The position numbers and the translations under genes were made by a program. The notes under the pieces were generated by a model, which saw only the letters and a list, made by a program, of their open reading frames with translations, searched no databases and was not told the DNA's origin. Of a DNA stretch of 37,779 nt, positions 13,125 to 33,887 are shown piece by piece (the first letter of the stretch is position 1; every line of letters begins with the position of its first letter). The stretch comes from a virus, in the IMG/VR virus record IMGVR_UViG_3300005582_000035, positions 1-37,779 of that record. The stretch is one strand, 5' to 3'.

Positions 13125-13129
13125 ACTGA

Positions 13130-13137
13130 TATTTATT
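13130..13137 (-). promoter_or_regulatory. T4-like late promoter element, 5 bases from ATG
   Basis: AATAAATA, then TCAGT, then ATG at 13124 (minus strand). Confidence 0.7.
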
Positions 13138-13159
13138 AACTACAACTATAATTAAATTA

Positions 13160-13666
13160 TCAGGCTGTTTTTTTAATGTAACAAATATCAGCTTGTTGAC
13201 CATGCAATAACCATCCAACGGGAATACTTTGTACAGGTCCATCCCACATAATAATTCCTCCTGTAGGAATATTAGAAATAGGTGTAAGACTACTAATCCA
13301 TTGTGATTCATTTCCTTGGAATCCGTGCGATACTGCCAATTCATATGCACTTGCACCAGTTTGTCCAAGTAAACCGCGTGGACCAGGATCTCCTTGGAGG
13401 CCGCGCTCACCTTGTGGGCCAGCAGGCCCAGCCATACCACGTGGTCCAGTGTCACCGATTGGTCCAACATCTCCTTTTGGGCCGCGGGCGCCGTCATTGC
13501 CAGTCACTCCTTGTTGTCCTTGTGGTCCAACATCGCCTTTTGGTCCTTGCGGTCCTGTTGCTCCGCCAGCTGGACCACGGTCGCCTTTTGGTCCAGCTTT
13601 ACCTGGAATTCCTTGTGCCCCTGCTGGGCCACGTGCCCCTGCTGGGCCTCGCATCATTGTTGCCAT
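13160..13666 (-). CDS. Collagen-like phage tail/fibre protein with short collar domain
   Basis: Residues about 7-105 are Gly-X-Y triplets rich in Pro ([12 protein letters not shown]), a collagen-like triple helix as in phage tail fibres. [15 protein letters not shown] follows, a common linker in tail proteins. The end is a tail-collar-type start ([20 protein letters not shown]) that stops after about 30 residues, whereas full collar domains are longer. The protein may be a short accessory fibre or adhesin. ATG at 13666 behind GGGGA; a late element AATAAATA lies 21 bases before the start. Confidence 0.8.
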
Positions 13667-13687
13667 AGTATCCCCTGTTTGCTCTTA

Positions 13688-13695
13688 TATTTATT
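13688..13695 (-). promoter_or_regulatory. T4-like late promoter element of the collagen-like gene
   Basis: AATAAATA on the minus strand, 21 bases before the ATG at 13666; a conventional leader with GGGGA follows. Confidence 0.65.
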
Positions 13696-13725
13696 GGAAA
13701 AATGGTAAAACTAGAAACCATTAAC

Positions 13726-13733
13726 TATAAATA
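13726..13733 (+). promoter_or_regulatory. T4-like late promoter element, 5 bases from ATG
   Basis: Perfect TATAAATA, then TAATT, then ATG at 13739. Confidence 0.75.
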
Positions 13734-13738
13734 TAATT

Positions 13739-14341
13739 ATGACCAACTATAATTATGACATTGCACTACCAGTTGACTTTGAATACGACTTATCATTTTT
13801 TCAAAACCATTATCAAACGCACTATGCTAAGTCTATAGCAGTAGGTTATGGTGATGAAAATCCTGCCAATGTACCTTACTTTAAATCATTAATGGACAAA
13901 TATGATTTCTTAGACAATCATTTGGGGTGGTTTAAAATTTTACCTGCTTATACATTTCCATTACACATAGATAAAACAGAACAGTATCCACGTAATGCAG
14001 TACTAAACATTCCAGTATATGACTGCGACGAGCATACGTCAACTAATTATTATGATATACCGGAAGATGATCCTAACTGGGATCAACCCAGTACCACTAA
14101 TCAGATGATGAGTAGAGCAATGTGGTATAATGTTATTCGATGCGGGCCGGCAAATATGCCTAAGCCAGTATATACATTTAATTGTACTGAGCCAACGTTA
14201 CTTAATGTAACCCTTCCACATGATGTTAAGAATCGAGGAAGGAAAACTAGAGTGCTGGCCAGCTGGCATATAAAGCCAAATAAATTTGACCAAGCCAGAG
14301 ATTATTTAGAATCAAAGGGACTGATAAAACAGTGGAGATAA
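13739..14341 (+). CDS. 2OG-Fe(II) oxygenase-like protein, paralogue 3
   Basis: 200 residues. HID at 76-78 (FPLHIDKT), core strand NAVLNIPVYDCDE, distal His161 (LPHDV) and Arg171 (TRVLASWH). The HxD...H...R set is intact. Similar in build to the genes at 11687, 12576 and 27258. The start has no Shine-Dalgarno, but TATAAATA is placed five bases before it. Ends just before a hairpin terminator at 14341-14369. Role unknown. Confidence 0.77.
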   Translation: MTNYNYDIALPVDFEYDLSFFQNHYQTHYAKSIAVGYGDENPANVPYFKSLMDKYDFLDNHLGWFKILPAYTFPLHIDKTEQYPRNAVLNIPVYDCDEHTSTNYYDIPEDDPNWDQPSTTNQMMSRAMWYNVIRCGPANMPKPVYTFNCTEPTLLNVTLPHDVKNRGRKTRVLASWHIKPNKFDQARDYLESKGLIKQWR

Positions 14342-14369
14342 AAAAGCCCCTTTCGGGGCTTTTGTTTTT
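14341..14369. terminator. Bidirectional rho-independent terminator
   Basis: A-tract, AGCCCC-TTTC-GGGGCT hairpin, T-tract. It lies between the convergent genes 13739-14341 and 14368-14700 and can serve both. Confidence 0.88.
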
Positions 14370-14700
14370 ATTGCGTACACGCTATAATGTTTGTGTTCCT
14401 AGATGGATCAAACACTACTTCTGGTCTGTATCCCGCAGGACATTGCGGTGCTTGTTGCACAATTGGTTGTTGTGGGTATACTGGAGGATAAACATATACC
14501 GGTTGCTGTTCAACATATACAGGTCGCTGATTTTGCAGATACAATGCAGTACCAAAGCCTGCAATAACTGCCGGGGCTACCCAACCGTAACCATATCCGC
14601 CTCGATATCCGTGGTGCCCGTGTCCGCCATGCCTGTGTTGGGCCTGAGCTGGGACAATGCTTGCGGCTACTAAGGCCAATGTAATTAGCAGTTTTTTCAT
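14368..14700 (-). CDS. Secreted His/Gly-rich small protein
   Basis: 110 residues with a clear signal peptide (MKKLLITLALVAASIVPAQA). Then a His/Gly stretch (HRHGGHGHHGYRGGYGYG), a short hydrophobic segment (VAPAVIAGFGTALYL) and a Pro/Gln/Val-rich linker (PVYVEQQPVYVYPPV) with two cysteines near the end. The His-rich head could bind metal ions. It resembles small periplasmic proteins of proteobacteria rather than phage structural proteins. ATG at 14700 behind AAGGAG; promoter at 14754-14782. Confidence 0.72.
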   Translation of the reverse strand: MKKLLITLALVAASIVPAQAQHRHGGHGHHGYRGGYGYGWVAPAVIAGFGTALYLQNQRPVYVEQQPVYVYPPVYPQQPIVQQAPQCPAGYRPEVVFDPSRNTNIIACTQ

Positions 14701-14753
14701 GTTAAACTCCTTGTATATATATTTAACGTCTGACTACCGGATTCCGTTTACAT

Positions 14754-14782
14754 AGTATACAATATATTTGATTTATTGTCAA
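14754..14782 (-). promoter_or_regulatory. Sigma70-type promoter of the His-rich secreted protein
   Basis: TTGACA (14777-14782), 17-base spacer, TATACT (14754-14759), minus strand. The TGA stop of the gene at 14779 is part of the -35 box. Confidence 0.82.
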
Positions 14783-14988
14783 CCGGCCCACCTCAGGGCA
14801 AACAGTAATGCATCTTTTTCGTCACTGAAGAAATACACAATGTTAGGGTCATTAACCCTAACCCAGCCACCTGGCACCTTCTTTAGTCTTGTGGTATTAA
14901 CAGACTCATTTGTGATATAACTAGGGCAATGTGTCTTAGCCCAATCTAAAGCTGTCCAAACCGGATCGTATGGTAGTGTAACTGTCAT
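14779..14988 (-). CDS. Small DAL-tail family protein (69 aa)
   Basis: Begins MTVTLPYDPVWTALDWAK and ends YFFSDEKDALLFALRWAG, the family tail seen at 5169-6094 and 16130-16989. Start coupled by ATGA to the SulP gene; no ribosome site of its own. Stop codon embedded in the -35 box of promoter 14754-14782. Function unknown. Confidence 0.72.
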   Translation of the reverse strand: MTVTLPYDPVWTALDWAKTHCPSYITNESVNTTRLKKVPGGWVRVNDPNIVYFFSDEKDALLFALRWAG

Positions 14989-16133
14989 GTTTTGCTTGCG
15001 ATATGTTTCCAGTAGTATAACATGCTGGTCAATACTACTCCAAGTAAAACGGCATAGGCTAAATTGAATACAACTGTGGCCACGGTAACTGTCAGCATCA
15101 CAGCAATGTCTTGTCTTGGCTTACCTTTAAAAGATAAACTGCTCCAATCAAATGTGTGATAGCACACTACACACATGACACCAATCAGGGCCGCAATAGG
15201 TATTGATTCAATTATGAAACTAGCAAACACAATATAAGCTAGGATGGCCAATGCTTCCACTACGCCTGCCAAACGGTGATGTCCACCTGCTTCCAAGTTG
15301 ATAACAGTTTGCCCAATCATAGCGCAACCGCCCATGCCACCAAACAGGCCTGTCAACACATTACCTGCACCCTGAGCCATGCTTTCCCTGTTGGGCTGAT
15401 TTGTTCCGCCAATGGTCTTGTCCACTAAGTTGGCAGTTAGTAGTGTTTCAATTAGGCCAACCGCGGCCAGTATCACGCTGTAGGGTAGCACGATCCATAA
15501 TGTTTCTAATGTGAATGGCACGTTAGGTAAATGGAATGAGGGCATGGCTCCACTAATATGAGCTATGTCTCCTACTGTTTTTGTTGTGATGCCAAACGCA
15601 TATACCACAGCAGTCACAAGCACAATACCAAACAAACTTCCCGGTATATGCCGAGTAATCCGTGGAGCAATTAGTACTCCGAGAATAGTTACGCCGATTA
15701 ATCCCAACATAGAGTACAAGGCAAATCCTTGGGCAGGAATTTCATGAAACTGTGCCATAAAAATTACCAAAGCCAATCCATTCACAAAGCCTGTCATTAC
15801 ACTGGGCGATACCAGCTTGATTAGCTTGCCTAACTTGAACGCTCCAAACGCAAACTGTATCGCACCCATAAGCACAATACAGGCAAACAAGTATTCTACT
15901 CCATGTGTTACAACCAGTGCCACACTGACCACAGCCAAGCTACCAGCACCTCCACTTATCAAGCCAGGTCTGCCTCCAAACAAAGCAGTGACTAGTCCTA
16001 GTATAACTGCGGCATACAAACCTACTAAGGGATTAACGTGTGCTAATAGTGCAAAGGCCACAACCTCTGGCACCATAGCAAGACTTGTGGTAATGCCTGC
16101 TAGGGTATTGCGTGTTATTGCCTGCGTATTCAT
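14985..16133 (-). CDS. SulP-family inorganic anion transporter, STAS domain missing
   Basis: 382 residues, almost wholly hydrophobic, with about ten or more helices. Family marks: NTLAGITTSLAMVPEVVAFA near the N-terminus, LFGGRPGLISGGAGSLAVV, and GGTNQPNRESMAQGAGNVLT with FGGMGGCAMIGQT. SulP proteins move sulfate, bicarbonate or related anions across the inner membrane. It stops right after the last helix (SMLYYWKHIASKT), so the usual cytoplasmic STAS domain is absent. ATG at 16133 overlaps the stop of a 23-codon gene; an in-frame GTG at 16142 is an alternative. A transporter in a phage suggests metabolic support of the infected cell. Confidence 0.9.
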   Translation of the reverse strand: MNTQAITRNTLAGITTSLAMVPEVVAFALLAHVNPLVGLYAAVILGLVTALFGGRPGLISGGAGSLAVVSVALVVTHGVEYLFACIVLMGAIQFAFGAFKLGKLIKLVSPSVMTGFVNGLALVIFMAQFHEIPAQGFALYSMLGLIGVTILGVLIAPRITRHIPGSLFGIVLVTAVVYAFGITTKTVGDIAHISGAMPSFHLPNVPFTLETLWIVLPYSVILAAVGLIETLLTANLVDKTIGGTNQPNRESMAQGAGNVLTGLFGGMGGCAMIGQTVINLEAGGHHRLAGVVEALAILAYIVFASFIIESIPIAALIGVMCVVCYHTFDWSSLSFKGKPRQDIAVMLTVTVATVVFNLAYAVLLGVVLTSMLYYWKHIASKT

Positions 16134-16201
16134 TCTGCCCACTTAATTAAGAACATGGTGATTTGTTTTTCATTCTTAAACTGCCAAACATTAAAGCTCA
16201 T
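16130..16201 (-). CDS. 23-aa mini-gene consisting only of the DAL-tail motif
   Basis: Reads MSFNVWQFKNEKQITMFLIK followed by Trp-Ala-Glu and stop. The last 16 residues align with the tails of 14779 and 16198. ATGA overlaps couple it to both neighbours (start in the stop of 16198-16440, stop in the start of the SulP gene). The length is extreme, but the overlap structure and the similarity support a real gene. Confidence 0.5.
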   Translation of the reverse strand: MSFNVWQFKNEKQITMFLIKWAE

Positions 16202-16440
16202 GCCCACCTCAATGTAAACATCAGCAGTTCTTGCTGGTTATAAAACCAAAATTGATCAAATGACATTCGACGGCCACACCCGGTTTGTTCACACCATTCT
16301 ACTATTGGGTAGAAGTCTTCTTCTTTAAGATAGGTTGGATTGCTGGATCCTCCGGGGTATCCAGGATTACTAGGCCATGATGGGTCTTGAAGCCTATAAG
16401 CCTGCAATCTTAACGGTTTGAGTTCACGCCACTTTATCAT
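16198..16440 (-). CDS. Small DAL-tail family protein (80 aa)
   Basis: Begins MIKWRELKPLRLQAYRLQD, has a Pro/Gly/Ser-rich centre (PSNPGYPGGSSNP), and ends QFWFYNQQELLMFTLRWA. Start overlaps the stop of 16440-16769 (TAATG). Unknown function; its tail links it to the family at 5169-6094 and 14779. Confidence 0.72.
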   Translation of the reverse strand: MIKWRELKPLRLQAYRLQDPSWPSNPGYPGGSSNPTYLKEEDFYPIVEWCEQTGCGRRMSFDQFWFYNQQELLMFTLRWA

Positions 16441-16769: not shown

Positions 16770-16989
16770 GATGTAACCTATATAAAAAATATGATTCTTT
16801 AGTCATTAAAAAATACCCAGCGGTAGGAACTGGAATCCACTCATCTTCGCCGGCGGGCAATGATGCAATACACCATTGTAATAATGACTTCCAACCATGA
16901 CGACCTACTCTTACTTTAAGATACTCTAACTTAGGATCCGTCAGGTTTGCTTTGATCAAAGTACGTTGGATAGTTTTCTGGAAGCTCAT
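16735..16989 (-). CDS. Small phage protein, distant DAL-tail relative (84 aa)
   Basis: Begins MSFQKTIQRTLIKANLTDPK and contains GWKSLLQWCIASLPAGEDEW and YFLMTKESYFLYRLHHGD, the position where family members have their LRW tail. It continues 10 residues further than the others. It overlaps the oxygenase-like gene at 16931 by 59 bases in another frame, an unusually long overlap. AGG ribosome site before the ATG. Confidence 0.68.
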   Translation of the reverse strand: MSFQKTIQRTLIKANLTDPKLEYLKVRVGRHGWKSLLQWCIASLPAGEDEWIPVPTAGYFLMTKESYFLYRLHHGDRSAIHQET

Positions 16990-19429: not shown

Positions 19430-19437
19430 CATAAATA
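19430..19437 (+). promoter_or_regulatory. T4-like late promoter element, 5 bases from ATG
   Basis: CATAAATA, then TTTTT, then ATG at 19443. Confidence 0.72.
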
Positions 19438-19442
19438 TTTTT

Positions 19443-19874
19443 ATGAAATATTGGCAACCATACGTTAAAGCAGGCTGGGAAATTGTAATGGAAGCCCAGG
19501 GTAAAAGTCATATAATTTTGGATACTGAAGTGGAAGCATTTTTGGTTCATGTGATTGCCAAAACAATGGAACGCACTAATATTTGGGAACAACCTATTTC
19601 ACTTAAAATACTAACTGCTCAATCTTTGTTTGGAACACGAAAGGCCAATGCATTACAAGATATTGGAGAAGAATGTTTATTCATCGATGGCTGGCAAATT
19701 AAGAATAGCAAATGGCCTACAAAACAGTATTTCGCTGATATGGGGGAAATAGCATTTGGTATGGCTAGCACTAGTACTAATCCAGCCAACGAGTTATTGG
19801 AAATGGCCAGCAACAATTTTAAAATTATGAGTTCAGTGCTTAGAACTGCACGTAACCTTAATGGCGCCCCTTGA
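19443..19874 (+). CDS. Unknown phage protein (143 aa), probable leaderless late mRNA
   Basis: Begins MKYWQPYVKAGWEIVMEAQG. Contains LFGTRKANALQDIGEECLFI followed by DGWQIKNSK, and a helical C-terminus. No HxD motif, so it is not one of the oxygenase-like proteins, though it shares their promoter arrangement (CATAAATA five bases before ATG, no ribosome site). Its last 13 bases are antisense to the 3' end of tRNA-Arg(TCG). Function unknown. Confidence 0.72.
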   Translation: MKYWQPYVKAGWEIVMEAQGKSHIILDTEVEAFLVHVIAKTMERTNIWEQPISLKILTAQSLFGTRKANALQDIGEECLFIDGWQIKNSKWPTKQYFADMGEIAFGMASTSTNPANELLEMASNNFKIMSSVLRTARNLNGAP

Positions 19875-19936: not shown

Positions 19937-20475
19937 TTTATATAGTCCTTTAACATATCAACAGTTTTATTCCATGGCTTACCCGGCCAAAACCTAACAC
20001 TAAGACACCATCTGTCGTCATTACTATTGTTTATTGTCTTATGTGGTATATCTGTTCTTACTAATGTTGGTACTGTAATTTGATGTCTTGCAATTTCTGT
20101 AACTTCGTTGTCTAACCAATATATGTGTTCTCGCTTACTACCCGTTACGTATTCTATGTTACCTTCAGTCAACGGGTCGTACCATATCATTTCACTGGAC
20201 TGTCCGCTCAGTACCCAATTGATTGCGGCAGGCACTGGATTTTTAATTCCGTCTGTGTGTATTTTACATTCGCGACCTGCTTTGCCATAAAATAAATGTA
20301 CAAAATGTGGCATTGACTTAATTTCTTTAAACCATGCAAATACTTCATCAGACAATATATCTTTAGCTTCGGGTAACCATATGGTCCACGGATCAGGTAT
20401 GCTGGTTACATCGGGGAATACAAAATTAGGATTAAGTGGATTAGTAATAGGTAAAGTTAACGGATAGTAATTCAT
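19927..20475 (-). CDS. 2OG-Fe(II) oxygenase-like protein, paralogue 5
   Basis: 182 residues from the ATG at 20475, which overlaps the stop of the last desaturase gene (ATGA); GGAAAGG lies further upstream. HTD at 73-75 (CKIHTDGIKNPVPAAINWVL), distal His145 (DIPHKTINN) and Arg155 give an intact HxD...H...R set. Closest in form to 27793-28362 (both have AINWV/ALNWV after the HxD). It ends inside the 5' end of tRNA-Arg(TCG). Being cotranscribed with the desaturases, it may act on the same product. Confidence 0.77.
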   Translation of the reverse strand: MNYYPLTLPITNPLNPNFVFPDVTSIPDPWTIWLPEAKDILSDEVFAWFKEIKSMPHFVHLFYGKAGRECKIHTDGIKNPVPAAINWVLSGQSSEMIWYDPLTEGNIEYVTGSKREHIYWLDNEVTEIARHQITVPTLVRTDIPHKTINNSNDDRWCLSVRFWPGKPWNKTVDMLKDYIKPL

Positions 20476-21248
20476 TTTGCAAATACCTTTCCTATGATCC
20501 ATCCAACACTGTCAAATTCATTTGGCTTCATTGCAAAATTCCATGCACCTTGCTGGTGGTGGTGATTGTTGTGGTATGCTTCCCCGGGATGAAATATTCC
20601 AAGCCACGGAGTATTATAACTGTTATCAGCAGTATCGAAATTTCTATAACCGCCAGGTAACTTTGAATGTGTGAGTATGAGTCCGCAGATAATTGTATTA
20701 ATCTGAAACACACGTCTGCCAGTTAATAATACAAACACAACGAACTTCCAACTAACAATGGCCAACAACAAACATATAACTGTAAACACTTTACTGGCAT
20801 GTTTATGACAGAATACAAGAACAGGATCGCGTATTAAATCAACCGGCCATGGAAAACTTTTTGCACGGGCACGTAAATTTGTATGTAACTGTTCTGTAAA
20901 AATTGTATAACTTAAAATCTTCCACACCCCGTCCATTGGGCTGTGAGGATCATCTTTGGTATCTGCATTTTTATGATGCTTGCGATGCATAGCAGTAATA
21001 GTAATAGGATCGCCTGGGCCAAATATTGTACAAGCTGTTAAAAAATAGTGTCTGAACTTTCCTGTTTTAAAACTTTTATGACTAAAGTATCTATGGCTAG
21101 CAATCTCTTTACTAAGAATCTCTATAACAATCTTTTCCCACAGTAACATAATTACCAGCCAATACCAATCTGCAGGATTTATAATAATCCATCCTATTGT
21201 AAACAAAAACGCAATACTAGCGATGTTGCTAAGATTAATGTATTTCAC
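20472..21248 (-). CDS. Membrane fatty-acid desaturase, copy 4 of the tandem
   Basis: About 258 residues from a GTG start at 21248 with AGGA eight bases upstream. The three histidine boxes of acyl-CoA/acyl-lipid delta-9-type desaturases are intact: HRYFSH, HRKHH and HNNHH (YHNNHHHQQGAWNF). Hydrophobic stretches at the N-terminus and between boxes II and III provide the membrane helices. These di-iron enzymes introduce a double bond into acyl chains and need an electron donor, here presumably from the host. Shorter than typical bacterial forms (about 300 aa or more). Start overlaps the end of copy 3. Confidence 0.88.
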   Translation of the reverse strand: MKYINLSNIASIAFLFTIGWIIINPADWYWLVIMLLWEKIVIEILSKEIASHRYFSHKSFKTGKFRHYFLTACTIFGPGDPITITAMHRKHHKNADTKDDPHSPMDGVWKILSYTIFTEQLHTNLRARAKSFPWPVDLIRDPVLVFCHKHASKVFTVICLLLAIVSWKFVVFVLLTGRRVFQINTIICGLILTHSKLPGGYRNFDTADNSYNTPWLGIFHPGEAYHNNHHHQQGAWNFAMKPNEFDSVGWIIGKVFAK

Positions 21249-22059
21249 GTAAGCTATCCTTTTCTGCAAATATATATTTTATTGCATACGCAACATAATC
21301 TATTTCATCTGGTTTTGTACTTTGATTCCAAGCGCCCGGTTTAGCATGATGATTATTATGAAATCCGTCTCCGAACCACCAATTGATCCATTTTGTATTG
21401 TAACTGTTATCAGTCGTATCAAAATTTCTATATCCACCCCATGCTTTTTTATGGCCATATACAATGTTAAGGATTCCGGTTTCAGCAAGAGCAAGGCCTA
21501 CACCAAATACATATCCAAATATAAGTAATTTCCACGACACTAACACACATAATAACATTGTACCTAAGCATAACACGGCTAGATTGTTATGTATAAACCT
21601 CGCCGACCTGTCACGTAGTAAATCAAATGGTACTGTTGCTTTATCCATATACCCACTGTAGTTAAATCCTAATACTAATTTTCGATTATAACTTAAACTA
21701 CTCCATATACCATTTAATGGGCTATGTGGGTCCTTAGGTGTGTCGCTGAATTTATGGTGGAATCTATGTATTGCGGCCGCAGTAACTGGACTCACAGCCG
21801 CAAATATAGACGATATACAGAAAAATTTATGCACCCGGTCACTAACTTTAAAACTACGATGACTAAAATATCTATGTAACATCATGCTACGAACCAATGG
21901 TTGCACATATAGACGAACCCAAATAATGCCGCCCAATAGCCAAGGCCAGTCACTGGGGTTAAAACAAACCCATAGAAAACAAAAAGGTATACTTATGATA
22001 CTTGATATACGAAGTGTACTGATTAGTAATGCAGTTTTATTAATATCATTTAATTTCAT
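21235..22059 (-). CDS. Membrane fatty-acid desaturase, copy 3 of the tandem
   Basis: 274 residues. Boxes HRYFSH, HRFHH (IHRFHHKFSD) and HNNHH (FHNNHHAKPGAWN) are intact. The start MKLNDINKT at 22059 lies 14 bases inside copy 2. NPSDWPWLLGGIIW near the N-terminus is almost repeated in copy 2 (NPSDWPWLLAGIIF), showing recent common origin. Same reaction class as copy 4; regiospecificity cannot be read from sequence. Confidence 0.88.
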   Translation of the reverse strand: MKLNDINKTALLISTLRISSIISIPFCFLWVCFNPSDWPWLLGGIIWVRLYVQPLVRSMMLHRYFSHRSFKVSDRVHKFFCISSIFAAVSPVTAAAIHRFHHKFSDTPKDPHSPLNGIWSSLSYNRKLVLGFNYSGYMDKATVPFDLLRDRSARFIHNNLAVLCLGTMLLCVLVSWKLLIFGYVFGVGLALAETGILNIVYGHKKAWGGYRNFDTTDNSYNTKWINWWFGDGFHNNHHAKPGAWNQSTKPDEIDYVAYAIKYIFAEKDSLREIH

Positions 22060-22843
22060 TAACAAATACCTTATCGACAATCCATCCTGCTAAATCAAAT
22101 TCGCCTGGCATAATTGCCATGTTGTACTTGCCCGGATACATATGATGATTATTATGATAGCCTTCTCCGGGACTTAGTATTTCCAAAAATTTAGAATTAT
22201 AACTCTGGTCTGCTGTGTCAAAGTTTCTGTAACTTCCCCAAATCTTCATATGTACTAATGCAATAAAAATAATACTGTTGTTTATTGCAGTTAATCCTGT
22301 AGCAAAGAACAAACAAAATACCATTAACTTCCAACTAATTAACAGACATAACAAGGCGTACACGCCATACACTAAAATGCAATTGTTATGTAACCACATA
22401 AGTGAAGGATCTCTCATTAAGTCAACCGGCAACTGCATTGCTTTTTTATTCTGTACTACTCGTTCTCTCCAAAACAATGAATTCCAAAAACCATATATCT
22501 TAGGGCTATGTGGGTCCTTATTAGTATCACTGTGTTTATGGTGGTATCTATGTACTGTGGCCGCAGTTAACGGACTGTTGGTACTAAATGAATTTGCAAA
22601 CAGTAAAAAGTAATGTTTAGCTTTGCTAGTTTTAAAACTTCTATGACAGATGTAACGATGGAAAGCAATATTTTTACCTATCATGCCAACAAAAAACTTG
22701 CCAAATATAATTCCTGCTAATAGCCATGGCCAGTCACTGGGATTAAAGAACATCCATAGTATTGTAATCGGCACACTAAAAAGGCCAACTCGTTTCCATA
22801 AAAATTCTAAAGGTCGTGCCCCTATCTGTTTGTCTTCTATCAT
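22046..22843 (-). CDS. Membrane fatty-acid desaturase, copy 2 of the tandem
   Basis: 265 residues. Boxes HRYICH, HRYHH (VHRYHHKHSDTNKDPHSP) and HNNHH (YHNNHHMYPGKYN) are intact. Start overlaps the stop of copy 1 (ATGA) with no ribosome site, so translation is coupled. The HKxSDTxxDPHSP segment after box II is common to copies 2 and 3 and close in 1 and 4. Confidence 0.88.
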   Translation of the reverse strand: MIEDKQIGARPLEFLWKRVGLFSVPITILWMFFNPSDWPWLLAGIIFGKFFVGMIGKNIAFHRYICHRSFKTSKAKHYFLLFANSFSTNSPLTAATVHRYHHKHSDTNKDPHSPKIYGFWNSLFWRERVVQNKKAMQLPVDLMRDPSLMWLHNNCILVYGVYALLCLLISWKLMVFCLFFATGLTAINNSIIFIALVHMKIWGSYRNFDTADQSYNSKFLEILSPGEGYHNNHHMYPGKYNMAIMPGEFDLAGWIVDKVFVNEIK

Positions 22844-23595
22844 ATAAACAATTTTTTAACTACCCATCCTGCAAAATCATATTCGCCGGGCGCTGTTGCT
22901 TGATTGTATTTACTAGGATACTTGTGATGATTATTATGTAATCCTTCACCTATATCAAGTATCTGTAAATATTTGTTATTCCAACTATCATCAGCTACGT
23001 CAAAATTTTTGTAGCTTCCTGGTAGCCTCATGTGAAATAATGCACTTCTAAACAAGCCCATGTGCAAGTAATTCCAGCCTATGCCTGCTAAAAATATAAA
23101 TGCTGATAAGCGCCAATCAATTAAGCATAACATTATGTTGCCAAAGATAATAATGTTGTACATATTTTCGTGCAATATTAACAAAAACTCGTCTCTCATT
23201 AAATCAATTGCCGGTTTCACTTTTTTATCCATGTTCCATGACCAAGTAAACGCACTATGTATAAATCCATTATTCGGACTATGTACATCTTTGATTGTGT
23301 CACTGTATTTGTGATGTTGACGATGTACACTTGCATACACTATCGGACTAATTGCTGTAGTACAAGATACTATAGCTAGTAATTTATGAACCAATGGGGT
23401 CGCTTTAAAACTGTTATGACTAAAATATCTATGTTGCGCTATTTGATTTCCAAACAATCCAACTACAATTTTATAATACAACAGGCTATAAATGATCCAG
23501 GTCCAATCTTCGGCCACAGTCCAGTATAATAAAAAGAATAAACTTGCGTAACCTGCTAGTTGAAGCAGTCTGGATAAAGTTGGATTATAGTGCAT
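22840..23595 (-). CDS. Membrane fatty-acid desaturase, copy 1 of the tandem
   Basis: 251 residues, first gene of the cluster. Boxes HRYFSH, HRQHH and HNNHH (LHNNHHKYPSKYN) are intact; DVHSP replaces the DPHSP seen in the others. TATAAATA lies seven bases before the ATG and no ribosome site is seen, so cluster expression is probably late. Only 31 bases separate this start from the divergent gene at 23627. Confidence 0.88.
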   Translation of the reverse strand: MHYNPTLSRLLQLAGYASLFFLLYWTVAEDWTWIIYSLLYYKIVVGLFGNQIAQHRYFSHNSFKATPLVHKLLAIVSCTTAISPIVYASVHRQHHKYSDTIKDVHSPNNGFIHSAFTWSWNMDKKVKPAIDLMRDEFLLILHENMYNIIIFGNIMLCLIDWRLSAFIFLAGIGWNYLHMGLFRSALFHMRLPGSYKNFDVADDSWNNKYLQILDIGEGLHNNHHKYPSKYNQATAPGEYDFAGWVVKKLFI

Positions 23596-23602
23596 TTTAT
23601 AA

Positions 23603-23610
23603 TATTTATA
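23603..23610 (-). promoter_or_regulatory. T4-like late promoter element of the desaturase cluster
   Basis: Perfect TATAAATA on the minus strand, seven bases before the ATG at 23595. Confidence 0.7.
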
Positions 23611-23613: not shown

Positions 23614-23621
23614 TGTAAATA
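23614..23621 (+). promoter_or_regulatory. T4-like late promoter element, 5 bases from ATG
   Basis: TGTAAATA, then CGTAT, then ATG at 23627. Back to back with the desaturase late promoter. Confidence 0.62.
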
Positions 23622-23626
23622 CGTAT

Positions 23627-24220
23627 ATGAAACAAGTTGATATTTTGCCTCCGTATTGTTATCCAATTGACGGAATAACCGTAGATCAAAAACAACTATA
23701 TGACAGTATTATAACACTATTAAATAGGCTTTGTCTAGATATTGACGATATATGTTCTAGGCTAGGCTTTGCTATTAATTTAACGCATTTACCTGGACTG
23801 GTCGGAGAGGATGCGTGGCGCAAATATAGTGCCAGCCATGCACATTTAGTAGAACAGAACATAGATGAAGCCAATTTCACCGAGCATTTAAAAGAGGCCG
23901 AAGATTTATATGTGGGTAAATTAGTTCATAAACTGTATGACAGACATCATGGATTCTGTGGGCGAGCACAGCTTGTTTGGTTAGGTCCTAACAATGGTTA
24001 TAGGTTTCATACTGATCCGCATACCCCAAACAGGTATCATGTGCCTATAGTGACCAACACTGATTGTTATTGGTTGTTTAAAGATGACAAGGATGTGTAT
24101 AAGTTACACATGCCAGCAGATGATAGAGTATGGTATTTGGATCCAATTAATATAACACATACATTTCATAACGGATCTAATACTGCCAGGTTGCACTTGT
24201 TATTAACTAGTGCTACTTAA
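23627..24220 (+). CDS. Aspartyl/asparaginyl hydroxylase-like 2OG-Fe(II) protein, paralogue 6
   Basis: 197 residues. HTD at 128-130 (YRFHTDPHTPNRYHVPIVTN), distal His181 (THTFHNGS) and Arg188 (TARLHLLL). The H-D-P-H-x(3)-R-Y-H-x-P-I pattern resembles aspartyl beta-hydroxylase-type enzymes. The N-terminal 100 residues are helical and specific to this member. Divergent from the desaturases; TGTAAATA stands five bases before the ATG. The end overlaps the convergent gene 24217 by four bases. Confidence 0.78.
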   Translation: MKQVDILPPYCYPIDGITVDQKQLYDSIITLLNRLCLDIDDICSRLGFAINLTHLPGLVGEDAWRKYSASHAHLVEQNIDEANFTEHLKEAEDLYVGKLVHKLYDRHHGFCGRAQLVWLGPNNGYRFHTDPHTPNRYHVPIVTNTDCYWLFKDDKDVYKLHMPADDRVWYLDPINITHTFHNGSNTARLHLLLTSAT

Positions 24221-24927
24221 TCTATCAAAGTTTTTTCGTGTTCTTTGATTACTGCAACCAAGTCCTCTGCCCTTACATTATCAAAATCTAGTCCTACATT
24301 AATGCGTTTTGCGCCGCCATATCTGTGTACGCTATGCCATGTTAAGTGATTAAACACGTACCAGTTACCTTGTTCTATCGTGGCATTTACTACACATTCA
24401 ATTTTATCTAAATCTGGAATCCTAGTAGTAGATATTGTTTCAAATGGTGCAGTGGGCTCATACCATCTTGTTTGTTCATTACTACTTTGTAAAAGTAAAA
24501 ATATAGAACACTTGCGTTTGTGCCCATGATGTGCAGGTAATACACTACCACCTTCACCAATTTGAAAAATCGGTACAGGCTCTCCTGGACTCAAGTCTTT
24601 AAGAAACTGCGGAGTCAAATCTAACAGTTCTTGTGCGGCATCATCCGGCAGATAAAATTGCTTAAATTCTATAGGATCCTCGCCCGGGTAAGTATTTTTA
24701 ATTTGTTTATATCTACGTAGTAGCTCTTTACTTTTTTCTAAGCCGATACTTTCGTACACACCCCAAGGATCTTTAAGACCATTTTCATAGTTCGCACGAG
24801 GAGGAAAATAACTGTCGTCCCTATTTGCTTGCTGTCGCAGACGTTCACCAAATTCTAGTCCAAATGTTAACTTAGTTTTATAAATGTATTTGTCGGGATT
24901 GATCCCGGATTTTAATGTTTCTATCAT
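24217..24927 (-). CDS. 2OG-Fe(II)-like protein with HxG in place of HxD, paralogue 7
   Basis: 236 residues. The expected metal site reads H133-H134-G135 within LPAHHGHKRKCSIFLLL, while relatives have HxD there. Distal His198 (LTWHSVHR) and Arg208 (KRINVGLDF) are kept. In Fe/2OG halogenases the Asp is replaced by Gly or Ala to make room for halide, so halogenation is a possibility. Loss of activity is the simpler alternative. Located opposite 23627. The ATG is six bases after a TATAAT box. Confidence 0.7.
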   Translation of the reverse strand: MIETLKSGINPDKYIYKTKLTFGLEFGERLRQQANRDDSYFPPRANYENGLKDPWGVYESIGLEKSKELLRRYKQIKNTYPGEDPIEFKQFYLPDDAAQELLDLTPQFLKDLSPGEPVPIFQIGEGGSVLPAHHGHKRKCSIFLLLQSSNEQTRWYEPTAPFETISTTRIPDLDKIECVVNATIEQGNWYVFNHLTWHSVHRYGGAKRINVGLDFDNVRAEDLVAVIKEHEKTLID

Positions 24928-24933
24928 ATTATA

Positions 24934-24961
24934 ATTATACTATATTATAGTGTAATGTCAA
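24934..24961 (-). promoter_or_regulatory. Sigma70-type promoter giving a near-leaderless transcript
   Basis: TTGACA (24956-24961), 16-base spacer, TATAAT (24934-24939), then a second TATAAT and ATG at 24927. Minus strand. Confidence 0.68.
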
Positions 24962-27244: not shown

Positions 27245-27252
27245 ACTAAATA
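27245..27252 (+). promoter_or_regulatory. T4-like late promoter element, 5 bases from ATG
   Basis: ACTAAATA, then TTGTG, then ATG at 27258. Confidence 0.58.
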
Positions 27253-27257
27253 TTGTG

Positions 27258-27818
27258 ATGCTATATTATAAAATATCTCTACCTGCATTAATGTATACTG
27301 AGGATGATAGGCAAGAGTTAATACAACTTTTCAAAGGCCGTGGTCGACAAGGACATGGCCAAATGATTAACTTAGATGATTTTGATTCTAATTATTTTCG
27401 TAAACTACAAAATAATTTTCCTGTTAGTAACATTGCAGTATTACATTATACTACACCAAATGCTATAGTCAATGATAAAATGTATAAAATGATACATCGC
27501 GATCCACGACCTGTTGCACTTAATATACCCATTCAAAATTGTGGTATTGGTGCCGACACAATTTTTTATACTGTAGATAGTGTTGTAGAACGATTAGAGT
27601 CAATTGGTAACGGACAGTATAAAGCAACTTCGTATTCGGAACAACCAACTGGAGCAGTAGAATTAGATAGATTCTGTTTAACTATGGACTCTGCAATGTT
27701 ACTAAGAACAGATCATCCACATGCTAAAGTTCAAACTACCGATGCTCATAGAATGTTTTTAAGCGTGACACCTATTATAGGTTTTGAAGATTTCATTCAG
27801 CTATTAGACCCACACTAG
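27258..27818 (+). CDS. 2OG-Fe(II) oxygenase-like protein, paralogue 8
   Basis: 186 residues from the ATG at 27258; the in-frame GTG just before it would break the promoter spacing shared with its relatives. HRD at 80-82 (KMIHRDPRPVALNIPIQNCG), distal His155 (DHPHAKV) and Arg165. Clear paralogue of 12576-13124: same length, same RP-ALNIPI-NC order, GADTI next. No ribosome site. Its 3' end overlaps the convergent gene 27793 by 26 bases. Substrate unknown. Confidence 0.78.
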   Translation: MLYYKISLPALMYTEDDRQELIQLFKGRGRQGHGQMINLDDFDSNYFRKLQNNFPVSNIAVLHYTTPNAIVNDKMYKMIHRDPRPVALNIPIQNCGIGADTIFYTVDSVVERLESIGNGQYKATSYSEQPTGAVELDRFCLTMDSAMLLRTDHPHAKVQTTDAHRMFLSVTPIIGFEDFIQLLDPH

Positions 27819-28362
27819 CAAGTTTATCTCTTGTTCTATAATAAGGCCATAGCCAATTATCACGGAACAATATACTCACTGTAATTCGATCTTTCATTTC
27901 TTCACCTACCACAACTCTGTGAGGAACCGAAGTATCAACCAAATATTGTTTTTCATGTGGCAACGTTTGACAAGTATAAGGATCATTAAACCGACCGGCC
28001 GCGGCGGCAGTTGCTAGACCATTTGTATGTCCATCCAGTATCATACTATCATTCCATTGAATAACCCCGATACCTTGCACTACCCAATTCAATGCACATT
28101 TTGTAGTGCCTTTTTCATTGCCATCGATATGCCATGGGAAGAAAGGCCGACTGTGCCATTTAAACACTCTTGCCATTGATAGCCTGAGTCCTATGCTTTT
28201 AAACTTTTCATGTATTTCTGTAGGCCAAATATTGTTTAAGTCTATAATCGGTTTCCAACGTGGTGTGGTTTCACCAATAGGTGAACTGTCGCCCCACACA
28301 GTTTGCCAATCTATATTTGGCAAGGGAATATTAATATTCGAATAAAAGTCTCTGTCCTTCAT
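27793..28362 (-). CDS. 2OG-Fe(II) oxygenase-like protein, paralogue 9
   Basis: 189 residues from the ATG at 28362. The frame is open further upstream only because it crosses a tRNA gene. HID at 78-80 (FFPWHIDGNEKGTTKCALNW), distal His148 (SVPHRVVVG) and Arg159. Closest to paralogue 5 (19927). ATTAAATA ends five bases before the ATG and shares its first A with the CCA end of the upstream tRNA. Probable leaderless late mRNA. Confidence 0.78.
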   Translation of the reverse strand: MKDRDFYSNINIPLPNIDWQTVWGDSSPIGETTPRWKPIIDLNNIWPTEIHEKFKSIGLRLSMARVFKWHSRPFFPWHIDGNEKGTTKCALNWVVQGIGVIQWNDSMILDGHTNGLATAAAAGRFNDPYTCQTLPHEKQYLVDTSVPHRVVVGEEMKDRITVSILFRDNWLWPYYRTRDKLASVGLIAE

Positions 28363-28367
28363 AACAC

Positions 28368-28375
28368 TATTTAAT
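28368..28375 (-). promoter_or_regulatory. T4-like late promoter element, 5 bases from ATG, fused to a tRNA end
   Basis: ATTAAATA (minus), then GTGTT, then ATG at 28362. The first base is the final A of the tRNA-Met CCA. Confidence 0.58.
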
Positions 28376-28499: not shown

Positions 28500-29102
28500 T
28501 TATGTAAACAATTTATTTTTCATTTCGTCAAAAGTCACAGCACTAGGATCTACTAGACGTAATGTAACTACTCTTCGCTTATATGGAGATTTAATATTTT
28601 GCCAAGCATGCCATATGTTAGGATTAAACAATATCATTTCTCCTTCTTTGGCTACCATAGATTTTATAGGTTTAAACATAGCTAACTTATTATAATCTGA
28701 AAATATATGCCTAACATATGGCATTCCAGTTGGTTGGCTGTGCCTCATTTCGATATCGCTGTAAAACGTTGTTTCGCATAACTCGTCATGTGTTTCTATG
28801 ATTATGTTAAAGCTAGTCAGTGACCACATTCCGTCCTTATGTATTCCGCATCCACCGCCAGGCGGAGTTTCGAAAATAGCAACTCTTTCTTTGTTAAACG
28901 GAACAAGATTGCTCATTGGCAACATGTCCATTATTTGCAATGCAATATCTTCATGAAAGTCTAAATGACTATATCCTATAAACTTATTATGTAGATGTAC
29001 TAAGTGATCATGTTCTTTTATGAACTGTACTATTTTATCTAAACCTTCAAATGTAAATCGAACGTAGTAAGGACTGCAATCTTCTATTATTGTGTATCTC
29101 AT
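28500..29102 (-). CDS. 2OG-Fe(II) oxygenase-like protein, paralogue 10
   Basis: 200 residues. HKD at 88-90 (GCGIHKDGMWSLTSFNIIIE), distal His165 (PNIWHAWQNI) and Arg176/177. FETPPGGGCGIHKDG is typical of small oxygenases of this fold in viruses. GTTAAATA ends five bases before the ATG; no ribosome site. Followed by tRNA-Met downstream. Substrate unknown. Confidence 0.78.
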   Translation of the reverse strand: MRYTIIEDCSPYYVRFTFEGLDKIVQFIKEHDHLVHLHNKFIGYSHLDFHEDIALQIMDMLPMSNLVPFNKERVAIFETPPGGGCGIHKDGMWSLTSFNIIIETHDELCETTFYSDIEMRHSQPTGMPYVRHIFSDYNKLAMFKPIKSMVAKEGEMILFNPNIWHAWQNIKSPYKRRVVTLRLVDPSAVTFDEMKNKLFT

Positions 29103-29107
29103 GCACG

Positions 29108-29115
29108 TATTTAAC
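29108..29115 (-). promoter_or_regulatory. T4-like late promoter element, 5 bases from ATG
   Basis: GTTAAATA (minus), then CGTGC, then ATG at 29102. Confidence 0.58.
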
Positions 29116-30193: not shown

Positions 30194-30225
30194 ATTTAAA
30201 CTGCTATTTATTGACTAGCCGTTTT

Positions 30226-31056: not shown

Positions 31057-31060
31057 TATA

Positions 31061-32179
31061 TCACCATGATGGAAGTTTCTTCATTTTGGCGGTAAGTTTA
31101 AGACCCACTGTCTTTAATACTTCTTTACGCATCTTATCTCGTTGCATACGACCTGCCTTAGTCATATTGTTAGTGCCTAATATTTCTCTACTGTACATTG
31201 TCCAACTTACTGCATGATTGGCAATGAGAGCTTCCTGTTCTGGCCACCTGGCCTTTTTAATAAACATAGCATATTCTTGGCTACTACGTGGACCCAGGGC
31301 CATCTGTGGTTCTATTAGGTCATACTTTTTAGCTAACAGGTCCTTACAAAAGCCTTCCATGCCGCCAGGATAAGACTTAATCTTTTTAACGTGCTTAATG
31401 TTAATGCCTGTTTCATCTAAAACATATTTGGTCATGTCATAGAGTCGGTCCCTCTCGTGTTCGGCCTGCTTTTGCTTAAACAAATAATCTGTGTATGCTT
31501 TTATTTGATTTTTTATAACCTGACCAATTACAGGATGTTCCTTAAATTTTTGTTGCTCTGCCCAATCTAACCTTCTATCTCGGGCATCATATAATTGAAT
31601 TTGGTTAGCATAGTCATGTTGGATCTGATATTGGTACTTGCTACCATTACGGTCTCTCCAAACATATAAATCACTGGTCTCAGTATAGTCTTTAAAGAAC
31701 CCCGCTTGTGTAGTACACCACTTTGTACCTGAACCCAACTGTCTTGCCGCGGTAGCAGTTTGTGGACTTGCCAACTGTCCAAAAGGACCATTGTACAATA
31801 TCTTTGTGTTTTTAATAATTGGAAAGGCGCCTGCTTCTTTTTTAGTTTTAGTTATTAGTACTTCTTTAATAACAGGATTAAGAACTTTATCGATGGTCTC
31901 GTCTAGTTCATAAAAACTAAATTGGTTAATGTCTCGTTTTTCTAAACGAGGTTTTAGTTTATCAAAGTTTTCTAATACAGTTTTAACTCTCAGTGTATCT
32001 TCAAACTTAAATTGGTTGCTTATTAGTTGTTTGGCCAGCCAAGGAACGTACTGCAAGTTCTTAGTAGGATCCATTTTCTCTAAAGCAATAACGATATCCA
32101 CCACTTCCATTTTAGTGTGGCGGACTACGTCTGTAAATTTGTTTTTAAATTTCTCTACGGTTATTTCACGTTTAGACAT
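31061..32179 (-). CDS. Unknown phage protein with GTKWCTT motif (372 aa)
   Basis: A helical N-terminal 130 residues, then ARQLGSGTKWCTTQAGFF (about residue 147) and VWRDRNGSKYQYQIQHD, then a lysine-rich helical C-terminus (KQKQAEHERDRLYD). GTKWCT/S motifs recur in uncharacterised proteins of large phages, but I know no function. ATG at 32179 behind AAGGAGAG; promoter 32202-32230. First gene of a two-gene operon. Confidence 0.78.
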   Translation of the reverse strand: MSKREITVEKFKNKFTDVVRHTKMEVVDIVIALEKMDPTKNLQYVPWLAKQLISNQFKFEDTLRVKTVLENFDKLKPRLEKRDINQFSFYELDETIDKVLNPVIKEVLITKTKKEAGAFPIIKNTKILYNGPFGQLASPQTATAARQLGSGTKWCTTQAGFFKDYTETSDLYVWRDRNGSKYQYQIQHDYANQIQLYDARDRRLDWAEQQKFKEHPVIGQVIKNQIKAYTDYLFKQKQAEHERDRLYDMTKYVLDETGINIKHVKKIKSYPGGMEGFCKDLLAKKYDLIEPQMALGPRSSQEYAMFIKKARWPEQEALIANHAVSWTMYSREILGTNNMTKAGRMQRDKMRKEVLKTVGLKLTAKMKKLPSW

Positions 32180-32201
32180 TGCTCTCCTTGTACAATATTA
32201 C

Positions 32202-32230
32202 AGTATACTATAGAATTTATTTTATGTCAA
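32202..32230 (-). promoter_or_regulatory. Sigma70-type promoter of the 31061/30226 operon
   Basis: TTGACA (32225-32230), 17-base spacer, TATACT (32202-32207), minus strand. Confidence 0.8.
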
Positions 32231-32257
32231 GTTATGTCTAGGCACGACATATTAAAT

Positions 32258-32341
32258 TGGTGCGAGAGGCGGGACTCGAACCCGCATGCCTTTCGACGGG
32301 AGATTTTAAGTCTCCTGAGTATACCATTTCTCCACTCTCGC
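32258..32341 (-). tRNA. tRNA-Leu (TAA)
   Basis: Acceptor GCGAGAG/CTCTCGC, anticodon stem-loop GGAGA-CTTAAAA-TCTCC, long variable arm (CGTCGAAAGGCAT), encoded CCA. Confidence 0.94.
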
Positions 32342-32352
32342 ATTTTATATTA

Positions 32353-32498
32353 CATTTGTTTAGTGCTATCGTGCAAATTTAGACGTAGGGTGCTTCCCTG
32401 TCAAAGCCGATGCAGTTATATCAGGATCAGTCGCCGGCCGCTGTGACCCGTATAGTGTATGCGTCCATACACGATACCTTGATAACACTAAACAAATG
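32353..32498 (-). ncRNA. Candidate structured RNA closed by an 18-bp helix
   Basis: Between tRNA-Glu and tRNA-Leu(TAA). Arms 32481-32498 and 32353-32370 pair over 18 positions in the minus-strand RNA (CATTTGTTTAGTGTTATC with GATAGCACTAAACAAATG), with one U-G that would be a mismatch on the other strand. Inside is a perfect hairpin GTGTATG-GACG-CATACAC and GC-rich sequence. No gene is supported. It has the same architecture as 26597-26852. Confidence 0.55.
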
Positions 32499-32571
32499 GT
32501 ACTGGGTAGGGGGGTCGAACCCCTCTTCCCGCCGTGAAAGGGCGGTGTCCTAACCGATAGACGAACCCAGC
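32497..32571 (-). tRNA. tRNA-Glu (TTC)
   Basis: Acceptor GCTGGGT/ACCCAGT (G1-U72), anticodon stem-loop CCGCC-CTTTCAC-GGCGG, encoded CCA that overlaps the helix arm of the neighbouring RNA. Confidence 0.92.
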
Positions 32572-32628
32572 ACAAATAACTAATAAATTGTTAAAGAGCA
32601 AAACGTCAATTACTTAACGTAAGCATGT

Positions 32629-32657
32629 ATTATATATTAAATGCCATTTGATGTCAA
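32629..32657 (-). promoter_or_regulatory. Sigma70-type promoter of the tRNA-Glu/ncRNA/tRNA-Leu unit
   Basis: TTGACA (32652-32657), 17-base spacer, TATAAT (32629-32634), minus strand. Confidence 0.83.
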
Positions 32658-32683
32658 CTAAAATCTAGACATAATTTTAAGTT

Positions 32684-32691
32684 CATAAATA
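32684..32691 (+). promoter_or_regulatory. T4-like late promoter element, 5 bases from ATG
   Basis: CATAAATA, then CTGAG, then ATG at 32697. Confidence 0.7.
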
Positions 32692-32696
32692 CTGAG

Positions 32697-33887
32697 ATGA
32701 AATCCTTAAAGGCATTGGTAATAGAAAATGATGTATGCCCTATCCCATGGATGGATGTTGCAATACTAAGTGCTAAAAACTCAGTATTGCCTTGTTGCAA
32801 ATACACTAATCCAATTGGACCAATTGGTACCGATTTGAATGTTGCATGGAACAATGCTGGCTACCAACAACTACGCAACGATTTATCAAATGGAATCCAA
32901 CATGATAACTGTAAAGCCTGTGATGTTAGCCATGATGCATTTTCTTATAAAAAATGGAAAACACGTAGTTACTTGAAATCAGGTATACTGGATAACGTTG
33001 ACGTCGCTAACCCAAAACCCAAAGTATTTCATTTGGCGGGATTCAGTAACACTTGTAACCTTGCTTGCCGTATGTGTGATATCGGATCCAGCAGTACTTT
33101 ACAAGCACTGGCAAATACCACCATTTTAGGAAAGTACTTAGGTACCGGTTACAACAATCACAAAGTTGATGTAGCTCATCTAGCACAATCCATGTCGGAA
33201 GTAGAACAACTCAGTATTACCGGTGGTGAGCCTTTTCTAGATAAGCCAATGTTGGAGTTTGTTAAAAGTTTAGCACAATATCCTAATATTAAAGATATAC
33301 ACTTCTCAACTAACATGAGCACAAGAAATATAAAATTACTTGATGCATTAGCGGAATTAAATGTTGGTGTATCATTTAGTGTTAGCATAGACGGACCCGA
33401 ACACATACATGAATATATCAGGCATGGATCTGTTTATCAAGAACTATTAGACAACATAAAATATATTACTGATAACTATCCTAATAGATTTAGATTTAAT
33501 ATCAATACCACTATCAATGCCTACAACGTAGGTTATGTTGATGAAACAATTAAATCATTTTACGAGTTATCAAAATACTGCGGAATCATACTTAGAGACA
33601 TTATGTTTAGTCCTGTATTGAATCCTGAGTACTTGCATCCAGGCGTACTTCCAATAGAAATCAAACAAGAATATATTTCAAAATTAAAATCATTTAATGT
33701 GTTCCGTTATCAAATACGTGTGCCTAGTACAAGACGTTTCATTGCAACTGCAATAGAACTACTTGAACAAGATAAAACACATCTGTACGACATGTTTACT
33801 GAATACACTAATGATTTTAATTCTGTTACTAATTCTAAGCTATGGTACCCCACCCCCGACTCGAACGGGGAGAATTTCTCCTTTTGA
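32697..33887 (+). CDS. Radical SAM protein (twitch/SPASM-type)
   Basis: 396 residues. The radical SAM cluster motif is CxxxCxxC at Cys120, Cys124 and Cys127 (NTCNLACRMCDIG), and LSITGGEPFLDKP is the SAM-binding GGE motif. Additional cysteines before the barrel (Cys33, Cys34, Cys72, Cys75) suggest an auxiliary cluster or zinc site. Such phage proteins are often annotated twitch-domain radical SAM enzymes; relatives modify peptides or cofactors. The last 15 codons are antisense to tRNA-Leu(CAA), so the C-terminus may be a recent extension. CATAAATA stands five bases before the ATG with no ribosome site. Confidence 0.85.
   Translation: MKSLKALVIENDVCPIPWMDVAILSAKNSVLPCCKYTNPIGPIGTDLNVAWNNAGYQQLRNDLSNGIQHDNCKACDVSHDAFSYKKWKTRSYLKSGILDNVDVANPKPKVFHLAGFSNTCNLACRMCDIGSSSTLQALANTTILGKYLGTGYNNHKVDVAHLAQSMSEVEQLSITGGEPFLDKPMLEFVKSLAQYPNIKDIHFSTNMSTRNIKLLDALAELNVGVSFSVSIDGPEHIHEYIRHGSVYQELLDNIKYITDNYPNRFRFNINTTINAYNVGYVDETIKSFYELSKYCGIILRDIMFSPVLNPEYLHPGVLPIEIKQEYISKLKSFNVFRYQIRVPSTRRFIATAIELLEQDKTHLYDMFTEYTNDFNSVTNSKLWYPTPDSNGENFSF

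Follow-up and report, generated by a model that had tools for sequence, protein, structure and literature searches.

We identified, in a 37,779-nt stretch of viral DNA (positions 1 to 37,779 of IMG/VR virus record IMGVR_UViG_3300005582_000035; the window, below), a set of genes in which the hexamer TAAATA, the core of the T4 late promoter, stands exactly five bases before the ATG start codon. These boxes are very likely T4-type late promoters from which transcription would start at, or a few bases from, the A of the ATG, giving leaderless mRNAs whose translation would initiate independently of a Shine-Dalgarno (SD) sequence. The layout recurs in a large group of marine and freshwater members of the T4 superfamily, including the pelagiphage HTVC008M and uncultured jumbo phages, and covers a subset of their late genes. 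In the mechanism we propose, RNA polymerase carrying gp55 would recognise the TAAATA box and start at or near the A of the ATG, and ribosomes would take the 5′-terminal AUG of the leaderless mRNA without an SD; the remaining late genes of these genomes would be read from an identical box that is followed by a leader of about 16-28 bases, in many cases with an SD. The box, its spacing, the lack of SDs, a pyrimidine at position -1, conservation at the baseplate gene gp25, and the presence of gp55 in relatives are observed directly; where transcription starts, how the mRNA is translated, and that gp55 acts in the phage of the window are inferred.

Counting both strands of the window, and taking as the gap the number of bases between the TAAATA core and the ATG, 8 of the 33 TAAATA boxes lie exactly five bases ahead of an ATG, and they are the eight that an earlier sequence-only reading had listed (starts at 13124, 28362, and 29102 on the reverse strand, and at 13739, 19443, 23627, 27258, and 32697 on the forward strand). 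All eight precede frames of at least 60 codons (long frames, below; only ATG starts were searched in the gap counts), and at the remaining gaps up to 12 long frames occur only once at gap 4 (36557, forward) and once at gap 7 (23595, reverse), the two extra genes of that reading. Dinucleotide shuffles of the window gave a mean of 1.12 such sites (maximum 4; n = 100) or 1.23 (maximum 5; n = 300), the binomial probability of eight is about 2e-7 (8e-6 after multiplying by 40 gaps), and the reversed pattern gives no case at this spacing. Among 15 hexamers of the same letters, TAAATA ranks first at gap 5 although it is the rarest; the runner-up is TTAAAA (5 of 69). On inspection, none of the eight genes has GGAG, AGGA, or GAGG within 30 bases before its ATG, as had been claimed. 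Leaders of 21-31 bases had been proposed for four further genes; those of the collagen-like tail gene (21), the nuclease gene (23), and the acyl-carrier-protein gene (31) hold, but the holin box lies 13 bases from the first ATG and 25 from the second. The late boxes are as follows.

13122-13135, reverse strand: TAAATA-N5-ATG, gene 12576-13124; small 2-oxoglutarate (2OG)-Fe(II)-oxygenase-like protein, weakly supported (weak fold match).
13728-13741, forward strand: TAAATA-N5-ATG, gene 13739-14341; aligns with the oxygenase-like paralogues, no family match.
19432-19445, forward strand: TAAATA-N5-ATG, gene 19443-19874; no family match.
23616-23629, forward strand: TAAATA-N5-ATG, gene 23627-24220; a distant homologue in pelagiphage Mosig likewise has gap 5.
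27247-27260, forward strand: TAAATA-N5-ATG, gene 27258-27818; aligns with the oxygenase-like paralogues, no family match.
28360-28373, reverse strand: TAAATA-N5-ATG, gene 27793-28362; one base past the 3′ end of a tRNA-Met gene.
29100-29113, reverse strand: TAAATA-N5-ATG, gene 28500-29102; PHROG match named DNA endonuclease V (2.7e-4).
32686-32699, forward strand: TAAATA-N5-ATG, gene 32697-33887; radical SAM protein.
36547-36559, forward strand: TAAATA-N4-ATG, gene 36557-37414; resembles an N-type PP-loop protein on inspection, no family match.
23593-23608, reverse strand: TAAATA-N7-ATG, fatty acid desaturase gene 22840-23595; Pfam FA_desaturase at E 1.1e-6, just under the curated cut-off.
13666-13693, reverse strand: late box with a leader (gap 21) ahead of the collagen-like tail gene; comparison class.
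12526-12563, reverse strand: leadered late box, gap 31, acyl-carrier-protein gene; comparison class.

The sequence-only reading stood to fall if the excess at this spacing were confined to the window; on other contigs the excess is present, and the claim survives. We counted 213 non-redundant phage records (36 of 251 records were dropped as redundant, and T4 and Syn9 are excluded from the totals of 286 and 204 genes below), comprising three differently chosen sets plus whole records. The desaturase set came from an alignment of the window's four desaturases, which yielded 80 viral contigs (11 redundant ones dropped, 69 used); the other two sets are loci with gp55 of the jumbo type (554 of the 600 matched stretches listed encode a relative; 2 of 80 loci dropped) and of the HTVC type. 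In total, TAAATA stands 4 or 5 bases before the ATG of a long frame in 286 cases, from 133 of the 213 records and 130 protein families. Long frames in the desaturase set number 32 at gap 4 and 54 at gap 5 (the remaining gaps up to 12 have 2-12 apiece); in the jumbo gp55 loci, 42 at gap 5, 13 at gap 4, 6 and 11 at gaps 6 and 7, and a mean of 2.4 at the rest; and in the HTVC-type loci, 48 at gap 5, 3 at gap 4, and 0-2 at the other gaps up to 12 except for 13 at gap 10. Cases are spread over many families in the desaturase set (70 cases, 43 families) and in the whole records (110 cases, 84 families). Within single records, gaps 4 and 5 taken together, compared with the average of the remaining gaps up to 12, give 18 vs. 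1.0 in G004, 20 vs. 0.9 in G003, 16 vs. 1.0 in G001, 15 vs. 0.9 in G002, 7 vs. 0.2 in G005, 6 vs. 0.45 in G015, 13 vs. 1.0 in HTVC008M, and 6 vs. 1.3 in Mosig. By shared proteins, the nearest kin of the window in the set are G001 (9 of 23 tested) and G003 (8 of 23).

T4 and Syn9 show no comparable long-frame excess at gaps 4 and 5 (3 vs. 1.1 and 0 vs. 0.4); unlike the phages above, they have long-frame peaks at gaps of about 26-29 and 20-28, respectively. In T4, gap 5 is the top of gaps 0-12 when any frame is counted (10 boxes, vs. 12 for the reversed pattern), but just three of these precede long frames, the same number as at gap 1, and one of the three lies inside uvsW. Altogether 18 of 45 virus records (T4, Syn9, and BUCT-ZZ01 included) do not exceed the reversed-pattern control. 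We also counted, de novo, each hexamer at each distance upstream of the first ATG in frames of 100 codons or more. TAAATA at gap 5 came out top in the window, in HTVC008M, Mosig, and G003, and in each of the three sets; in G004 and G015 the top element was TAAATA at gap 4. The SD takes first place in T4, and nothing in Syn9 reaches the threshold. The HTVC-type loci also have secondary peaks, of TAAATA at gap 10 (the 13 long frames above) and of TATACT at gap 12 (21), which perhaps reflect single conserved genes.

The T4 late box, as numbered in the literature, is 8 bp long with its first base at -13. It thus occupies -13 to -6, roughly one turn of the helix from the start (PMC2988020), and with gap 5 the +1 position would fall on the A of the ATG, as the sequence-only reading had stated. 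A pyrimidine is found at -1 in 192 of the 204 gap-5 genes, vs. 1106 of 2502 SD genes (44%; p = 1.6e-49), and in 85 of 93 when one gene per family is taken, which fits a transcription start at the A; the share is 89% at gap 6 and 74% at gap 7. Position -12 is A in 68% and -13 is near random, and there is no conserved -35 element (at most 0.26 bit at each position from -31 to -13 in the 204 gap-5 genes). These boxes resemble T4-type late promoters (the gp55/gp33/gp45 system) in their TAAATA core (given by the design of the search, and first in the de novo ranking), in lacking a conserved -35, and in the gp55 encoded by relatives; the degenerate first two bases, as in GCTAAATA and ACTAAATA, are like the variant consensus reported for phage Aeh1 (a/gC at -13/-12; PMC2988020), a likeness of consensus. 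SD sequences precede 4% of the 286 gap 4-5 genes vs. 47% of 548 leadered genes (gaps 16-28).

TAAATA might instead be an A/T-rich translation signal and no promoter, a substitute for the SD that is bound by the ribosome or by protein S1. The gap 4-5 genes without SD would fit such a signal, as would the sampled pieces of Pelagibacteraceae genomes, which are SD-poor (14% of 377 genes). In four Pelagibacteraceae genomes, however, TAAATA-N4/5-ATG and its reversed pattern occur 93 and 94, 81 and 91, 103 and 100, and 88 and 91 times, respectively, and neither of two podophages that infect this host has a long frame at gap 5 (in HTVC019P two stand at gap 4, which does not exceed its numbers for gaps 0 and 2). 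The absence of an excess in host genomes and same-host podophages argues against a signal read by host ribosomes and for a phage-dependent promoter. The same box also stands at gaps 16-28, where 47% of genes have an SD, the pyrimidine at -1 fits a start site, and a parallel layout exists for sigma-70-type promoters (see below); we therefore consider a translation signal very unlikely, and prefer late promoters placed at the start codon.

Conservation at gp25 supports the same reading. Taking as the gp25 start the in-frame start nearest the aligned position, chosen without regard to the box (54 records matched; Syn9 omitted, leaving 53), we found the box 4-7 bases from the ATG in 49 of 53 phages (gap 5 in 30, gap 4 in 10, gap 6 in 4, and gap 7 in 5); the upstream sequence is otherwise unconserved on inspection. 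The four exceptions, also as read by eye, show either TAAGTA at gap 5 (L200) or an SD-like sequence (L203, L222, and L260). Among cultured phages, the box is at gap 5 in HTVC008M and 24 bases away in cyanophage S-RIM12, and there is none within 40 bases of the annotated gp25 start in P-SSM3, Vibrio K446, Salmonella allotria, Acinetobacter 133, Campylobacter CJLB-14, or S-SZBM1. T4 gene 25 differs from the gp25 genes with a box 4-7 bases away: its SD reportedly lies at a distance of 27 bases and is brought nearer by RNA structure (PMC3014915).

These starts bear on a second alternative, in which the boxes are ordinary late promoters and the true starts lie elsewhere, either a few bases off or at a downstream ATG, leaving short ordinary leaders. 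The spread of gp25 gaps from 4 to 7, the lack of a -1 bias at gap 4, and the predicted nature of the window's start codons would agree with it. But gap 5 is the commonest, the gp25 starts picked by alignment agree in 49 of 53 phages, and annotation agrees throughout in the cultured HTVC008M, which has 16 matches at gaps 4-5, 13 of them before long frames (12 at N5 and 1 at N4), all 13 at annotated starts of coding sequences. We consider starts elsewhere very unlikely.

It is highly improbable that the spacing arose by chance or from coding constraint, that is, from the TAA stops of upstream genes or from conserved protein sequence. In 47 of 195 gap-5 genes the TAA also terminates an open frame of 80 codons or more, but the remaining 148 are not such stops, which rules out stop overlap as the whole cause; 130 protein families contribute, and the de novo ranking and the pyrimidine at -1 likewise speak against chance or coding constraint. 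The other TAA-holding hexamers tested have 1-7 long-frame cases at gap 5, vs. 42 for TAAATA (besides TTAAAA and ATAAAT, which overlaps the box), and the upstream sequence of gp25 is otherwise unconserved. Coding constraint does account for TTAAAA-N5-ATG (31 cases in the jumbo gp55 loci), which we considered as a second motif and rejected as an artefact: most of the jumbo cases start with MSVGN on inspection, an internal Met of a gp46-like gene, and of the five in the window, four precede frames no longer than 37 codons on the strand opposite the desaturase genes and one belongs to a Met inside the 36557 gene.

The proposed late sigma factor is encoded by several of these phages: gp55 is present in HTVC008M, Mosig, G001, and G004 (gp23 and gp20 are also found in G001 and G004), and no match was obtained in G002, G003, G005, or G015, which are possibly fragments. 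The jumbo-clade gp55 is about 300 aa long (G001, L162:5364-6251; G004, L123:3198-4091), and the 185-aa gp55 of HTVC008M matches its second half, implying a long extra N-terminal part in the jumbo version. The gp55 gene itself is preceded, in 30 of 63 HTVC-type loci, by TTGACA, a spacer of 16-18 bases, TAnnWT, N6 or N7, and ATG; for example, in L288, L303, and L343 this sigma-70 promoter of the late sigma gene would place +1 at or beside the A of the ATG. HTVC008M's own gp55 is not among the 30. TATAAT at gap 6 is the top of gaps 0-29 in the desaturase set (19), the jumbo gp55 loci (20), and the pooled jumbo records (15; next 13), with no peak in T4, Syn9, or the host pieces. In the window, TATAAT-N6/7-ATG occurs 4 times vs. 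2.2 expected, showing no excess; one promoter of this type is the following.

24925-24961, reverse strand: sigma-70-type promoter TTGACA-N16-TATAAT-N6-ATG, gene 24217-24927; absent at the G003 homologue.

Several observations weigh against leaderless late transcription from these boxes. Six of the eight gap-5 proteins of the window have no homologue in the comparison set, only the Mosig homologue of 23627 has a gap-5 box among 10, and no box precedes the 12 homologues of 32697 listed of 24. No gp55 match was found in the 38-kb window fragment, whose kinship rests on shared proteins, and the gap-6 peak of TATAAT is missing from the HTVC-type set. The counts in the two gp55 sets are not independent, as gp25 makes up 40 of the 55 jumbo gp55 cases and two families supply 22 and 14 of the 51 HTVC-type cases. 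In the de novo count the box is not first in G001, G002, or G005 taken alone (SDs rank higher in G001; the threshold is not reached in G002 and G005). Gap-4 genes lack the bias at -1 (56% pyrimidine, vs. 65% in leadered genes), and the occurrence of gaps 4, 6, and 7 means that a leader of 1-3 bases or a shifted start is possible in part of the genes. The low SD rate at gaps 4-5 is partly forced by the layout, because the box occupies much of the SD region. Finally, in 142 of 195 gap-5 genes another open frame on the same strand, 80 codons or longer and certainly spurious in some cases, ends within 150 bases upstream, so that read-through mRNA could also carry these genes.

The sequence-only reading had further claimed that the leaderless genes form one functional class, iron enzymes. 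This we dropped, because gp25 and virion genes of HTVC008M carry the same layout. The 13 HTVC008M genes encode a 2OG oxygenase, CsgF, a nucleotide cyclase, a transcriptional regulator, two unknown proteins, and head closure, baseplate tail tube cap, two baseplate wedge, tail completion, DNA end protector, and tape measure proteins; seven are thus virion or packaging genes against a single 2OG oxygenase, and gp25 is the most conserved case in the jumbo clade. At E ≤ 0.001, the radical SAM gene 32697 is the only one of the window's eight to match a Pfam family. The predicted structure of the 12576 protein (predicted local distance difference test score, pLDDT, of 57) has no match at E ≤ 0.001, although nearly all of the 50 matches listed are 2OG-Fe(II)-type oxygenases. 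An alignment of the 2OG oxygenase-like paralogues held no stretch conserved enough for scanning, and a single-protein scan with the window's radical SAM protein returned no relatives. In jumbo records, chosen via the desaturase query, families that we read as metalloenzymes make up 14 of 78 at gap 4-5 vs. 2 of 68 SD-leadered (p = 0.0035) among the families listed (the 25 commonest of 44, 32, 59, and 80, with the longest of 69 SD-leadered proteins omitted); without desaturases the difference has p = 0.17. There is an enzyme tilt in some jumbo genomes, and no defining class.

Leaderless phage mRNAs as such are already known: most middle and late mRNAs of the Thermus phage phiYS40 are reported to be leaderless (PMC3594737), and the T4-type layout is a variant on that precedent. 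The likeness is one of mRNA type, in another phage and host; for phiYS40 a shift in initiation factors IF2/IF3 is reported (PMC3594737), whereas no phage IF3 match was found here in 23 records. Among marine T4-like phages, the pelagimyophages (HTVC008M and Mosig) and the Melnitz-type methylophages are close comparisons; the parts of their descriptions consulted mention no leaderless genes (PMC9004378, PMC7029224), Melnitz is reported with 15 late promoters (PMC9004378), and late-promoter finding was called unsuccessful in pelagimyophages (PMC7029224). Titles and abstract openings of the Creative Commons-licensed articles listed from PubMed Central, a scope outside which subscription papers and preprints fall, gave no report of leaderless late mRNAs in T4-like phages.

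Some other features of the window deserve mention. It carries 19 tRNA genes, and the tRNA-Met beside the box of gene 28362 (28373-28375, reverse strand) raises the possibility that tRNA 3′ processing could also yield a near-leaderless end. Four tandem fatty acid desaturase paralogues (20472-23595, reverse strand; 34-42% identity to the first) form an unusual expansion for a phage contig; only 22840 was compared to Pfam. A Ro60/vWA-like protein (34223-35638, reverse strand) has matches annotated as RNA-binding or Ro sixty-related, is 94% identical to one in L080, and at E ≤ 1e-5 has counterparts in 681 of the 50,697 phage records. On inspection, 9641-11632 and 14985-16142 (reverse strand) encode a subtilisin-like autotransporter protease and a SulP-like transporter, possibly host-derived.

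Ribosomal protein bS21, which sits near the anti-SD, was found in 9 of 23 and 5 of 23 phage records (two batches): G001, G002, G003, G005, G011, G012, G015, G022, G041-G044, HTVC008M, and Mosig. Of the 11 records that reach 140 kb (a threshold set once the data were known), 5 of the 6 with a box excess carry bS21 and none of the 5 without (one-sided p = 0.013). Tentatively, these phages may run a leaderless translation programme in which their own bS21 adapts host ribosomes and shifts initiation toward 5′-terminal AUGs late in infection. We regard this as doubtful: the related phages are not independent, G004 has a strong excess and no bS21, G012 and G043 have bS21 and no excess, and no bS21 was found in smaller excess records such as G009, G010, and G016 (possibly fragments). 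The layout offers a lead on why some such phages carry bS21.

It is also a possible reason why late promoters proved hard to find in pelagimyophages, and the box spacing offers a start-codon rule for annotating such phages. A cultured Pelagibacter phage provides a case in which leaderless translation is directly testable. T4 late transcription is a textbook system of leadered mRNAs, and for many genes, among them a baseplate gene in which the layout is conserved across jumbo phages, a common aquatic branch of that superfamily appears to have moved the late box onto the start codon.

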